From positions 1 to 35,141 of the forward strand of contig JAVJQK010000002.1 in NCBI GenBank assembly GCA_040218145.1: a stretch of 35,141 nt of DNA, read 5' to 3'. This document shows, piece by piece, positions 20,012 through 24,941 of this stretch; the first letter of the stretch is position 1; every line of letters starts with the position of its first letter. Made by a program: the position numbers and the translations under genes. This DNA is from Sandaracinaceae bacterium (lineage in GTDB: Bacteria > Myxococcota_A > Polyangia > Polyangiales > Sandaracinaceae). A model generated the notes under the pieces. That model searched no databases, was not told the origin of the DNA, and was given only the letters and a program-made list of their open reading frames with translations.

Positions 20012-22846
20012 ATGACCACGAACGCCTCCGAACGCGACTTCGCCGAGCTCGCGCTCGCCGTCTACCTCGAGGAGCTGGCTTCCGGCCGGCGCGTCCTCTA
20101 CGTGGGCGATCCCGACAGCCCCGCCGCCGAGCGCCTGTCCAAGGCCGCCTCGCATCTGGAGGTCGTCACCCCCGGCGGGAGCGCCCGCGGCACACGCCGG
20201 GGCGGTCGCGTCCGCACGCGGCCCTGGCCGTCCCGCGAGGACGAGGGTCGCTGGGACCTGGTGGTGGTGCCCGACCTCCCGGGCGCCGGCCTCGCCCGCG
20301 ACGTGGAGACGATCGCGGGCTGGCTCGCGGAGGACGGCGTGCTCGTCGCTGGCACCCCGGACCCGGAGGGACCCGCCGGGCACGAAGACGCCCTGGGCTA
20401 CGAGGAGCTGTTCGACCTCCTCGAGGACAGCTTCGACGCCGTCCGCATGATCGGGCAGGCGCCGTTCCACGGCTTCAGCGTGGTGGACTTCGATCCGCCG
20501 GGCGGCGAGCTCGAGGTGACCTTCGACGGCTCGCTCCTCGAGGGCGCGGGCGAGCGCGCGCAGCGCTACGTGGCCCTCTGCGGCGATCGGGACGTCGTGG
20601 TCGACGCGTACGCGGTGATCCAGACGCCCGCGTCCGAAACGGCCCCGCCGGCGGTCTCGAGCGAACCTGCAGAGGAGTCGAGCCCGGAGCTGCAGGAGGC
20701 GCTCGACGCCGCCAACCTTCACGCCGAAGAGCTCGAGCGCGAGCTGGAGGAGGCGCAGAAGTCGATCGAGGCGGCCCGCGCGGACGTCGAGCGGGCCCGG
20801 AAGCGCGAGGCCGAGACGCGCGGGCGTGTCGACGAGCTGCGCGCGGAGGCCGAGTCGCTCTCGAAGCAGCTCGCGCGGCCGCCGGCCGAGGACAGCGGCG
20901 ACGACGAGTACGTGCGGCTCGAGACGGCGCTGCACGAGCGGGGACAGGAGCTGACCCAGGCGCGCGCGGAGATCGAGCGCCGCGGCGTGCTGGTGCGGGA
21001 TCTCGTCGAGGAGATGCGCACCCTGCGCAAGCACGGATCGGTCTACCCCGGCGCGGGCGGCTCGGAGCCGCCGCCCGGAGGCCTCGGCGGCTTCGGTGTG
21101 CGCACCACGATGGAGATCCACCCCGACGCGATGCACGCCGCGTTGCATGGGCAGGTCGCCGACGCGGTCGAGCGCGCGGTGGCGGCGGAGGCCGAGCGGA
21201 CCGCGCTCCAGTTCCGCCTCGACGAGGTGCGGGGCGAGCTGGCCGTGGCGGAGAACCGCGCCGCGCAGGAGACGGACGAGCGCGGCCGCATCGAGGCGGC
21301 GCTGCGGGGCACGGTGCGCGGCCTGAACGCGCGGCTCGCAGAGGTCACCGAGATGTACCAGCTCACGCAGGCGCGCCTGGCGCTCTGCGAGGAGGACCGC
21401 TCGAGCGCCGAGCGTCGCGCACACGAGCGCGAGCGACAGATGGCGGAGCTGCGCGAGCAGCTCGAGCTCGAGATGGCGCGCTACCGCGTGCGCGAGAGCG
21501 CCGACGACCGCGCCGACGGCGCGGGCACCGTCACGGCGGAGGACCTGCTGCGCCTCGAGCGCGTCGAGCGCGAGGGCGCCGCGCGCGAGGGTCAGCTCAT
21601 GGGCGCGCTGCTCGCCTGCCAGGAGCGCCACGCCGAGCTCGCCCTTCGCCAGCGACAGGCCGGGCTCGAGGCGCAGCTCGCGCGCGAGGCGCTGCTCGAG
21701 ATCGAGGAGCGCGTCGAGGGGATGCGGCGCGGCTACGAGGCCCGGGTCGCGGAGCTCGTCCTGGAGCTGAGCGCGCTCGGAGGGAGCGCGGAGCGCGCGG
21801 TCGTGCACACGGGCGAGCTGGGCGCGCGGCTCGAGCGCGCCGAGCGTGAGGGCGCCGCCCTGCGCGGCGAAGCGGCTGGACTGCGCCTGCGTCTCGCCGA
21901 CCGCGAGGCGGCGGTGGAGTCCCTCCGCGCCCAGGTCCCGGAGCCGGGCGACCGGCGGCGGGGAGATCGCCGCACCACGGATCGCCAGGAGAGCGACCGG
22001 CCGGAGAGCGAGCCCACCCCGCCCAAGAGCGGCAGCCGCGTGATCGTGATCGGCCGCGGCGCGACGACCGAGCCAGACGAGCCCGAGGAGACCGGCGCGC
22101 AGGCGGCCGAGGCGGAGCACGCGACGCTCGCGGCGCGCCTCGACGAGGCTCAGGCCGAGATCGACACGTTGCGCGGACGCGCCGACGCCCTGGCGCGGCA
22201 GCTGGCCGAGGCGCTCGAGGCGGCCTCTGCGCGCGACGAGGAGGGGCCAGACCCCAGGGTCGCGCTCTCGGCCCGCGACGGCATCATCTCCCGCCTGCAG
22301 AGCCAGCTCTCGCACGGGGCCGAGCAGCGGCGTCGCCTCCAGCGCGAGGTCGACGCCTTGCGTGCCCAGCTGAGCGAGCACCGGGAGACCGTCCAGTCCA
22401 CCGAGGCCGTCGCGGACGTACGCGTCGAGGAGTCGACGCGCGAGCTCGAGGAGCTCACCGAGCGTCTCGAGCGGAGCGAGGCCGAGCGCCGCGACGCGAT
22501 GACCGCGCTCGAAGAGGCGCGAGAGATCCTCACCCGCGTGATGCGCTCGCTGCCCGAGGAAGACGACGACGTCGCCGTCGGTGGCCAGGCCGAGGCGCGG
22601 CGCCTGCGCGACCGCATGGCCCAGCTCGACGCCGAGGCGGCCGATCGCGAGGTCCTCCTCCGCTCCCTGACCGCCCAGCTCCAGGAGCGCGATGACCGCA
22701 TCCGCGCGCTCGAGCGCATGGCCAACGGCAACGGCGCCCCGGCCGGCCAGGACCGCAACGAGCTCGAGGCACGCTTGCTCGAGATGGAAGAGCGAGTCGC
22801 GCGGCTGACCGAAGAGCTGGAACACGAGCGCCGCCGCTCCCTGTAG
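20012..22846 (+). CDS. Large coiled-coil protein with N-terminal methyltransferase-like domain, function unknown
   Basis: A 944-aa protein. Residues of about 8-210 look like a Rossmann/SAM-methyltransferase fold: GRRVLYVGDPDSPAAERL where motif I should be, then WDLVVVPDLPG and AGWLAEDGVLVAGTPDPEG as in the strands following motif II. The glycine-rich SAM loop is poor (VGDPDSP instead of GxGxG), so catalysis is doubtful. From about 225 to the end it is long heptad-rich coiled coil (Glu/Arg/Ala/Leu), interrupted by a Gly/Pro segment at about 345-372 (GAGGSEPPPGGLGGFG) and a Pro/Ser/Arg segment at about 650-695 that contains SRVIVIGRG. No signal peptide or membrane helix is seen. Long coiled-coil proteins with small globular heads act as scaffolds in myxobacterial polarity and motility, but no such family can be named here. 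It has its own promoter and no cotranscribed neighbour. Confidence 0.8.
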   Translation: MTTNASERDFAELALAVYLEELASGRRVLYVGDPDSPAAERLSKAASHLEVVTPGGSARGTRRGGRVRTRPWPSREDEGRWDLVVVPDLPGAGLARDVETIAGWLAEDGVLVAGTPDPEGPAGHEDALGYEELFDLLEDSFDAVRMIGQAPFHGFSVVDFDPPGGELEVTFDGSLLEGAGERAQRYVALCGDRDVVVDAYAVIQTPASETAPPAVSSEPAEESSPELQEALDAANLHAEELERELEEAQKSIEAARADVERARKREAETRGRVDELRAEAESLSKQLARPPAEDSGDDEYVRLETALHERGQELTQARAEIERRGVLVRDLVEEMRTLRKHGSVYPGAGGSEPPPGGLGGFGVRTTMEIHPDAMHAALHGQVADAVERAVAAEAERTALQFRLDEVRGELAVAENRAAQETDERGRIEAALRGTVRGLNARLAEVTEMYQLTQARLALCEEDRSSAERRAHERERQMAELREQLELEMARYRVRESADDRADGAGTVTAEDLLRLERVEREGAAREGQLMGALLACQERHAELALRQRQAGLEAQLAREALLEIEERVEGMRRGYEARVAELVLELSALGGSAERAVVHTGELGARLERAEREGAALRGEAAGLRLRLADREAAVESLRAQVPEPGDRRRGDRRTTDRQESDRPESEPTPPKSGSRVIVIGRGATTEPDEPEETGAQAAEAEHATLAARLDEAQAEIDTLRGRADALARQLAEALEAASARDEEGPDPRVALSARDGIISRLQSQLSHGAEQRRRLQREVDALRAQLSEHRETVQSTEAVADVRVEESTRELEELTERLERSEAERRDAMTALEEAREILTRVMRSLPEEDDDVAVGGQAEARRLRDRMAQLDAEAADREVLLRSLTAQLQERDDRIRALERMANGNGAPAGQDRNELEARLLEMEERVARLTEELEHERRRSL

Positions 22847-22859
22847 CTCACGGCCCACC

Positions 22860-23335
22860 GCCGCGTCCGTCGCCAGCTCCGCGTCCGCTACGGCGTCCAC
22901 CGCGTCCGCCCCCGCCCCCGCGTCCGCCACCGCGTCCGCGTCCGCCCCCGCGTCCGCGTCCGCCCCCACGTCCGCGTCCGCCCCCGCCCCCGCGTCCGCC
23001 CCCGCCCCCGCGTCCGCGTCCGCCCCCGCCCCCGCGTCCGCCACCGCGTCCGCATCCGCATCCGCGTCCGCCACCGCATCCGCGTCCGCCACCGCGTCCG
23101 CATACCGCGTCCGTCGCCAGGTCCGCCTCCGCGTCCGCCACCGCGCCCGCCACCGGTACCGCGTCCGCCCCCGCGTCCGAGTCCGCTACCGCGTCCGCCC
23201 CCGCGTCCGCCCCCGCGTCCGAGTCCGCTACCGCGTCCGAGTCCGCTACCGCGTCCGCCCCCGCGTCCGAGTCCGCTGTCGCGTCCGAGTCCGCTGTCGC
23301 GTCCGCCGTCCGCTGCCGCGTCGTCATCACGCCCG
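22860..23335. repeat. Hexamer-based GC satellite, intergenic (GCGTCCGCCCCC-type units)
   Basis: About 475 bp made almost wholly of mixed hexamers: GCGTCC, GCCCCC, GCCACC, and, in the right half, 18-bp units of the type GCGTCCGAGTCCGCTACC. Read on the plus strand it gives Ala-Ser-Ala-Pro-like codons, but the frame shifts near 23103 and there is no credible start codon or ribosome binding site. On the minus strand it gives Asp-Ala or Gly-Arg runs depending on frame. It starts just after the stop of the coiled-coil gene. I see no gene here. It resembles the pfaC linker and the right-end repeat in sequence. Confidence 0.75.
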
Positions 23336-23350
23336 CATGAGCCGAGCGAG

Positions 23351-23514
23351 GGCGGCCAGCTTTCGCGAAGCGAAAGCGCGAGCCGCAGGGGCCCCAGCGC
23401 CCCGCGCTGGGGTCGGCGGCAAAGCGCGCGGAGCGCGCGACCCGCCGTAGTCGGGAGGGGGCCCCCATTGGCGCTTTGCCCAATGGGGGGAGGGCCTGCG
23501 TTCAGGCCCTCCAA
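23351..23514. repeat. Hairpin-array repeat element, copy 1 of 3
   Basis: A 164-bp element made of successive inverted repeats. These are GCTTTCGC/GCGAAAGC (23359-23377, 3-nt loop); CCCCAGCGC/GCGCTGGGG (23392-23412, 3-nt loop); CGGCGG (23414-23419) pairing with CCGCCG (23442-23447) around an inner GCGCGC-GGA-GCGCGC (23424-23438); GGGGGCCCCC (23457-23466); CCCCCATTGG/CCAATGGGGG (23462-23489, 8-nt loop); and GGAGGGCCTG/CAGGCCCTCC (23489-23512, loop CGTT). More than half the bases can pair. It is followed by AAGAAAAAA. It lies between convergent genes. Possible roles: bidirectional transcription barrier, REP/BIME-like site, miniature mobile element or structured RNA. Confidence 0.85.
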
Positions 23515-23522
23515 GAAAAAAC

Positions 23523-23675
23523 GCGCAAAGCGAAAGCGCGAGCCGCGGGGGCCCCAGCGCCCCGCCGCTGGGGTCGGCGACCGAGCGCGCGGAGCGCACG
23601 AATCGCCGTAGTCGGGAGGGGGCCCCCATTGGCGCTTTGCCCAATGGGGGGAGGGCCTGCGTTCAGGCCCTCCAA
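23523..23675. repeat. Hairpin-array repeat element, copy 2 of 3 (diverged, 5' shortened)
   Basis: A 153-bp copy lacking the first ~11 bp (GGCGGCCAGCT) of copies 1 and 3. It retains the other hairpins. Differences from copy 1 include one inserted C in the CCCCAGCG/CGCTGGGG loop and a paired change in the central stem, CGGCGA (23575-23580) with TCGCCG (23603-23608), where copies 1 and 3 have CGGCGG with CCGCCG. One further change (GCGCAC at 23593-23598) breaks a pair in the inner stem. The last 65 bases, covering the CCCCATTGG and GGAGGGCCTG hairpins, are unchanged. Confidence 0.85.
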
Positions 23676-23683
23676 CGAGAACA

Positions 23684-23847
23684 GGCGGCCAGCTTTCGCA
23701 AAGCGAAAGCGCGAGCCGCAGGGGCCCCAGCGCCCCGCGCTGGGGTCGGCGGCAAAGCGCGCGGAGCGCGCGACCCGCCGTAGTCGGGAGGGGGGCCCCA
23801 TTGGCGCTTTGCCCAATGGGGGGAGGGCCTGCGTTCAGGCCCTCCAA
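23684..23847. repeat. Hairpin-array repeat element, copy 3 of 3
   Basis: A 164-bp copy nearly identical to copy 1. The visible differences are one base in the first hairpin loop (TTTCGCAAAGCG) and a G for C in the GGGGGGCCCC tract. It ends in the GGAGGGCCTG-CGTT-CAGGCCCTCC hairpin followed on the plus strand by a run of about ten A. On the minus strand the T-run therefore precedes the hairpin, so it is not an intrinsic terminator for the peptidase gene whose stop lies 26 bp to the right. Confidence 0.85.
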
Positions 23848-23873
23848 AAAAAAAAGGAAGAGGCTCGCTCCCC

Positions 23874-24941
23874 CTATTCGTCGCTCTCGGCGTCGTCGTT
23901 CTCGTCGCCGTCGGAGGCGATCGAGCCGGGGCCCTCGTCTTCGAGCGCGGCGGAGCCTTCGCCCGCCTCTTCCGCGCCGTCGTCGCCGCCCATGCCCGCG
24001 CTGCGGACCTGCTCGCGGGTGGCGTCCCCGGGGGCCGCCTGACCGCGACGCTGGTAGCGCGGGGCCTCGCCGGGGCGGGACCAGTCGACCCAGTAGGCGC
24101 TGCGGTCGCGCACGTCGATGTGCACGAAGTGGCTGCGCGGATAGAAGCCCACGCCGACGCGGTCGAAGCTGCGCAGGTAGTCACGCACCGCGTGGTTCGG
24201 TACGCCGCGCACGCGGATGTCCAGCGCGTGCCCCTGGGTGTGGCGGCTGCTCTCGCGCGTGTTGCCGCCGGAGTGTCGGTAGCCGCTGACGATGGTGATC
24301 TGTCGGCCGCCGAAGTGGTCGGACACGCGCGCGAGGATCTCGACGAGCCGTGTCGGAGGCAGAGGGCCGAGGCGCCCGTTTCGGCCGTGGAGGCGCGGGC
24401 GCATCATCTCGCGAAGCCTGCGGCGCGCGACCCGGCGCGCGCGACCGCGCGAATCGACCAGCCGGACGCGGAGGCGTCGGTCCAGGGTTCGGCGGTAGAG
24501 CACGGCCACGCCTGGGTGGCGCGGCTCTCCCCACCGCCGCGCCGCCTGCTGGCGCTCCTCGCTCGCGTCGAACCCGGGGAGCCGCAGCCGCTGGCCGATC
24601 CGGAGGGTGGAGCCGTCCCGCAGCCGGTTCAGCCGCCGCAGGTCGCGCACGCTGCACTCGTGGTCGCGGGCGATGCTCGCGAGAGTGTCACCGCGCGCGA
24701 CGTAGTGGACCCCGCGCTCCGGGATCCGCAGCACCTGGCCGGGGCGGAGCTGGGCGTCGCGGGAGAGGCCGTTCGCCGCCGCGAGGCTGGTCACGCTGAC
24801 CTCGTAGCGGCGCGCGACGCGGGCGAGGCTCTGACCCGAACGCACGGTGTGCTCGCGCTGCGCGTGGGCGACGCCGTCCAGGGCAAAGAAGGAGAGGAAG
24901 AGGAGGGCGGCCAACCACCCGCTGCGGACTACCGTTGCCAT
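23874..24941 (-). CDS. Secreted LysM-LysM-YcbK/DUF882-type peptidase
   Basis: A 355-aa protein. A signal peptide covers 1-27 (WLAALLFLSFFALDGVAHA). Two LysM peptidoglycan-binding repeats follow, at about 30-74 (HTVRSGQSLARVARRY...LRIP) and 78-122 (HYVARGDTLASIARDH...LRLP). A DUF882/YcbK domain, related to M15 peptidases, lies at about 195-290, with zinc-site residues in SRHTQGHALDIR (His234, Asp241) and FVHIDV (His274). The last 60 residues are acidic and low-complexity (Glu/Asp/Gly/Ser), unusual for the family. It likely cleaves or remodels peptidoglycan in the periplasm. It is transcribed away from the HTH gene, from a 204-bp divergent gap with an AT-rich patch. Downstream lie the hairpin repeats. 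Confidence 0.88.
   Translation of the reverse strand: MATVVRSGWLAALLFLSFFALDGVAHAQREHTVRSGQSLARVARRYEVSVTSLAAANGLSRDAQLRPGQVLRIPERGVHYVARGDTLASIARDHECSVRDLRRLNRLRDGSTLRIGQRLRLPGFDASEERQQAARRWGEPRHPGVAVLYRRTLDRRLRVRLVDSRGRARRVARRRLREMMRPRLHGRNGRLGPLPPTRLVEILARVSDHFGGRQITIVSGYRHSGGNTRESSRHTQGHALDIRVRGVPNHAVRDYLRSFDRVGVGFYPRSHFVHIDVRDRSAYWVDWSRPGEAPRYQRRGQAAPGDATREQVRSAGMGGDDGAEEAGEGSAALEDEGPGSIASDGDENDDAESDE

Follow-up and report, generated by a model that had tools for sequence, protein, structure and literature searches.

A multi-hairpin repeat family found close behind stop codons in relatives of Sandaracinus

The array and its neighbours

The window, i.e., the whole stretch of DNA analysed here (35,141 nucleotides), is one of the 148 contigs that make up the 11.06 Mb genome of a Sandaracinaceae bacterium (G000, the host genome). 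Three hairpin-rich copies of a ~160-bp unit lie at 23351–23847, where the original prediction had placed them; they are direct copies beginning at 23351, 23512 (in register) and 23684, with spacings of 161 and 172 bp. The orientation that matters is opposite to the one in which the array was originally read: it is the reverse complement, namely the sense of the gene at whose 3' end the array lies. This gene (23874–24941, minus strand) encodes a LysM and peptidase M15 protein, and a spacer that is T-rich in gene sense (23848–23873, minus strand) stands between its stop codon TAG (23876–23874) and the element. The gene-distal copy 1 (23351–23514, minus strand, 185.9 bits with the covariance model) and the gene-proximal copy 3 (23684–23847, minus strand, 184.7 bits) are 98.8% identical. 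Copy 2 (23522–23675, minus strand, 145.2 bits) is 94% identical over query positions 14–164; its plus-strand 5' end is replaced, and as it lacks the unit's first 13 bases, its first hairpin is broken. On the distal side, a GC-rich simple array of 6-bp units (22857–23326) is followed by a neighbour gene without Pfam match (20012–22846, plus strand). The setting between convergent genes, part of the original prediction, is true at the window and incidental to the element, since in other genomes the element is often followed by a co-directional gene.

Simple GC-rich arrays of this 6-bp type are general in the host genome and occupy many of its intergenic regions, with or without the element (22857–23326 in the window; L107:3500–3800; L241, L249 and L250). 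A special tie between them and the element was considered and rejected, as such arrays are common elsewhere (42 Tandem Repeats Finder rows, many of them overlapping, in 320 kb).

Folded as DNA, the plus strand is predicted to form five consecutive hairpins with a minimum free energy of −66 kcal/mol (z = −5.6; none of 200 shuffled sequences was equally stable), and RNA folds of 150-nt pieces gave z-scores of −3.8 for the plus and −2.7 for the minus strand. In copy 1 these hairpins are H1 (23352–23386; GCGGC..CTTTCGC gaa GCGAAAG..GCCGC), H2 (23391–23413; CCCCAGCG..CGCTGGGG), H3 (23414–23447), which holds the compensatory pair 23419–23442 treated below, H4 (23462–23488; CCCCATTGG..CCAATGGGG), which belongs to the cross-genus core, and H5 (23489–23512; GGAGGGCCTG cgtt CAGGCCCTCC). 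Read in gene sense, H5 is the first hairpin past the stop codon and H4 the second.

Next to H4 lies the G-run GGGNGGGGGG (plus strand, 23452–23461 and equivalent positions), which is unpaired yet conserved, with a variable middle base in G004; it is possibly a G-quadruplex or a C-rich protein site. The idea that the unpaired C-run pairs instead with the first arm was dropped, as this pairing is not preserved in G004.

A repeat family in the host genome and its relatives

A BLAST search with one copy, the check proposed for further copies, returned 103 matches in the host genome, ~60 of them near full length, and a covariance model built from 35 copies returned 120. Many host contigs terminate inside arrays of the element, which accounts for many contig breaks in these assemblies. 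The same model found 32 matches in G097 (Sandaracinaceae MED-G138, the same species as the host) and 52 in G004 (ACE_MYX11). With a pattern for the two-hairpin core (GGAGGG..CCCTCCCCCC..GGGGNCCCC in gene sense), matches were found in 12 of the 184 genomes of the order, and the reversed control pattern gave none. The highest counts were those of G034 (85), the host genome (60), G004 (27) and G097 (21), followed by G006 (18), G001 (12) and G002 (7), with 1–4 in each of the remaining five; G001 is a single contig of 10,327,335 bp and G006 consists of two contigs. The core also occurs in Enhygromyxa salina SWB007. Most genomes share the skeleton and have stem sequences of their own. The three repeats of the window are hence members of a large family found in relatives of Sandaracinus.

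Searches of Rfam at the gathering score and at E-values up to 5 returned sub-threshold noise only, and the plasmid search gave no match. The viral contig collection held two core-pattern matches only, one of which, a core-like double hairpin (L339:6986–7055), lies 9 nt past a predicted stop codon. In the non-subscription literature covered by the search, we found no publication on this family, and a text search of the Sandaracinus amylolyticus genome paper (PMC5010890) found no mention of such repeats. Neither Rfam nor the searched papers yielded such a family for this Myxococcota order.

Covariation and the nature of the folded molecule

The compensatory change named in the original prediction, from G23419–C23442 to A23580–T23603, can be read directly from the sequence, and the broken inner pair that it reported for copy 2 (GCGCGC/GCGCAC) is present as well. 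Across the host copies, pair 23419–23442 occurs as G–C, A–T or C–G. Within the host genome, seven pairs change on both sides (38 cells vs. 10.5 in shuffles), for instance from T–A to G–C in H4 and from C–G to T–A in H5, so that the proposed covariance-model check found both-sided changes in excess of shuffles. Across genera, double changes occur in 43 of 56 pairs (21.5 in shuffles) and add up to 347 cells, a number reached in none of 500 shuffles, and 95.3% of cells are paired vs. 78.7% in shuffles and 35–48% in slid structures; these cross-genus figures lean towards the structure, because the alignment is model-based and was fitted to it. The within-genome alignment (A1) was not fitted to structure and agrees with the cross-genus result. 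A MAFFT alignment of the cross-genus core (A2), in which H4 was not aligned by structure, was excluded from the counts. Conservation of the folded form, which the original prediction had proposed, is thus backed by strong covariation both within the genome and across genera. Given this covariation and the many further copies, the refuting conditions of the original prediction that the analysis covered do not refute it.

Counted on either strand, G–U pairs come to ~1%; the folded tRNAs of this genome reach 7%. This scarcity suggests a role, or arm-to-arm copying, of the hairpins as DNA; both a strand-symmetric constraint and arm-to-arm copying of DNA hairpins would give this pattern, and few founders per genome together with a high GC content also reduce G–U.

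Position relative to stop codons

The key feature, absent from the original prediction, is a near-fixed position just past the stop codon. In G004, the offset between the stop codon and the first hairpin is 6 nt (the mode) at 12 of 21 loci and 7 nt at two more, and a truncated copy occupies the gap at several of the remaining ones. Sense loci within 12 nt of a stop codon amount to 9 of 11 in G001, 14 of 17 in G006, 4 of 4 in G002 (all with offsets of exactly 9 nt) and 14 of 17 in G004; random placement in the same intervals gave means of 0.06–0.90, and in 20,000 draws no random count was as high as the observed one. Overall, offsets range from 2 to 12 nt in several genera and are mostly 6–9 nt, and nearly all copies share one orientation relative to the gene.

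The anchored stop codons are TGA, TAG or TAA, which argues against TGA as a simple DNA target. At G004 gene junctions (TGA|GTCTTC..), compared with tandem junctions (..CTCGAT|GTCTTC), the unit starts directly after the stop codon; a stop codon supplied by the element itself was discarded as an explanation, as it is absent from the tandem junctions. Housekeeping genes are among those that the element follows: pyrG and pyk are examples, and others we take to be rpoZ and atpD, named by eye from their sequences.

Anchoring is looser in the host genome, where the offset is at most 16 nt at ~40% of the sense loci and is 28 nt in the window, across the T-rich spacer; about one quarter of the clusters precede a gene start, and others are far from any stop codon. 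Some host copies follow tRNA genes or other T-tracts, and one array stands behind what we take, by eye, to be an SRP RNA gene and its T-tract terminator. At this SRP-like locus (L133 vs. L077), an additional single H5 hairpin with a T-tract is inserted in one strain. Elsewhere in the host genome, a 7-kb cluster of 19 tRNA genes is interspersed with hairpin elements (L059, G000:C126:106000–117000). In G034, which belongs to another family and has the highest count, anchoring was weaker among the nine sites with a predicted upstream gene.

The last three codons beside the element show clustered synonymous differences in gene ends that are otherwise near-identical. Examples are ATC TTG ATC TAG vs. 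ATT CTC ATT TAG (L143:2850–2890 vs. L231, G000:C50:~360740) and, in pyk, CAC CGC TTG TAG vs. CAT CGG CTC TGA (L330 vs. L331).

Turnover between species and within arrays

None of the stop-proximal element genes of G001 matches an element locus in G006, a second species of the same genus. For instance, pyrG carries the element in G001 and lacks it in G006 (99% protein identity) and in seven other genomes, while pyk carries it in G006 and lacks it in G001 (97% protein identity). At the pyk locus, the far-side flanks are 95.6% identical and the whole intergenic region of ~140 nt is replaced by ~170 nt; this presence/absence pair yielded no clean empty site and no target duplication. Orthologues of the LysM gene in G001, G002, G003, G004 and G006 have no element. 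Within one species (G000 vs. G097), positions are shared, nearly all of the 20 G097 loci being placeable at element-bearing loci of the host; the two genomes differ in copy number, in partial hairpins and in stem alleles. At the edge of the element, gene neighbourhoods change between strains or between sister species, as they would at rearrangement breakpoints (L128 vs. L111; L321 vs. L322).

Array members are mostly not local duplicates: identity is 0.917 within and 0.905 between arrays, and for 13 of 19 members the nearest relative lies in another array. In addition, the gene-proximal copy outscores the most distal one in 15 of 22 arrays (Wilcoxon, p = 0.002). These data are best explained by repeated arrival on the stop-codon side; part of the pattern could also be produced by widespread gene conversion, which could explain allele mixing without movement.

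Interpretation

The reading that we rate somewhat above even is that of a dispersed, non-autonomous multi-hairpin repeat family, REP-like, that occupies gene 3' ends; the original prediction had listed a REP/BIME-like site and a non-autonomous mobile element among its options, and these are the best class. The reading builds on the observed position, fold, turnover and array structure, from which we infer an enzyme, a mode of insertion and an effect on mRNA. New copies would come from elsewhere in the genome and either land or be retained where a gene has its stop codon, and older ones would be displaced away from it and then decay. The element may be moved as folded DNA by some factor, as in single-strand transposition that recognises hairpins. 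Its retention at gene ends would cost the host little, and the mRNA may be protected or terminated there.

Less probable, yet a serious possibility, is an RNA element of the 3'-UTR owned by the host, a terminator or mRNA stabiliser that selection keeps at one distance behind the stop codon and that spreads only through recombination and gene conversion, with no mobility enzyme. Such an element would account for the sense orientation and the 6–9 nt offset from TGA, TAG and TAA alike, for the housekeeping genes upstream, for the allele mosaics and for an element that evolves faster than its flanks between strains. It is harder to reconcile with G–U pairs that are equally rare on the gene-sense strand, unlike in structures selected as RNA, with hairpins that have no trailing U-tract, several copies standing behind an existing T-tract terminator, and with sister species that carry the element on different gene sets.

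We are more doubtful still of a mobile DNA element aimed at the exact end of the translated gene (any stop codon, one orientation, near-fixed offset), for which insertion would read where translation or the transcript stops, instead of a DNA sequence, and would stack new copies there. An architectural DNA site of the BIME kind (for gyrase, IHF or replication), merely tolerated at gene ends, is unlikely: it would suit the symmetric pairing at the DNA level, the intergenic location and the conserved G-run next to H4, and it gives no reason for orientation and spacing relative to the stop codon. An independently transcribed gene for a structured small RNA is very improbable, for the fold is conserved as it would require, but wobble pairs are rare, Rfam has no match, arrays hold degraded copies and the position is tied to upstream genes. 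An assembly artefact or mere minisatellite expansion, which contigs ending in arrays and adjoining simple arrays might have suggested, is refuted by copies in the one- and two-contig genomes G001 and G006, and single copies in unique flanks and recurrence at the same loci in a strain assembled independently also speak against it.

What the family shows is a repeat whose genomic location follows stop codons and not sequence. If movement is confirmed, the question becomes how the element locates gene ends; if function is confirmed, it would be a modular 3' end for these GC-rich bacteria.

Comparison with known systems

In an intrinsic terminator, a GC-rich hairpin is followed by a U-tract, whereas here the T-rich stretch precedes the first hairpin in gene sense and none comes after. 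Terminal inverted repeats, a trait of the MITEs of DDE transposons, were not seen in the unit, and the pyk pair shows replacement with no duplication. Integron attC sites are folded DNA placed right after a stop codon, in which structure is kept over sequence. Unlike these, the element is scattered behind housekeeping genes, has five hairpins and forms no cassette array. Group IIC introns (PMC10190682) insert behind terminator stem-loops and thus share the preference for structured gene 3' ends, and some host copies likewise stand behind a T-tract terminator; the element, unlike these introns, is only ~160 nt long and noncoding, and no intron RNA was recognised in it.

The closest comparison is with the REP/BIME sequences of Enterobacteria, Pseudomonas and Stenotrophomonas that are associated with RAYT, likewise dispersed intergenic palindromes with tens to hundreds of copies and complementary changes. 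REPs measure 20–40 nt, compared with ~160 nt and five hairpins here, and BIME units alternate, whereas our arrays are direct and head-to-tail. The GT(A/G)G or CGTC head of REPs has no counterpart conserved across genera (for GT(A/G)G, the host copies hold GTAG and the G004 copies lack it at that place); GTAG-tagged REPs may provide a TAG stop codon (PMC3733652). According to PMC2817692, inverted REPs always flank RAYT genes, an arrangement of gene and two flanking inverted repeats that this family does not show: the genes with strong Y1_Tnp hits in G000 and G004 were considered as a RAYT/IS200 partner and rejected, as they lack the element at both ends, and an apparent link between strong Y1_Tnp hits and high copy number involves three genomes only. 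Since the RAYT comparison failed, the family is likened to REPs in its working and not classed as one.

As in some REPs, copies lie close to stop codons, with far stricter anchoring: in E. coli, ~11% of predicted REPs fall within 15 nt of a stop codon (PMC12306157). The string of hairpins most likely works as REPs do, by analogy as a barrier that holds off 3'-to-5' decay and/or run-on transcription at the 3' end of the mRNA, and with the first hairpin so near to the stop codon, the terminating ribosome may be touched as well. Stop-proximal REPs are reported to stall ribosomes, in the account that PMC12306157 gives of its ref. 17, and the first hairpin of those REPs likewise lies within 15 nt of the stop codon, a distance that in the present family is conserved at 6–9 nt and followed by several hairpins.
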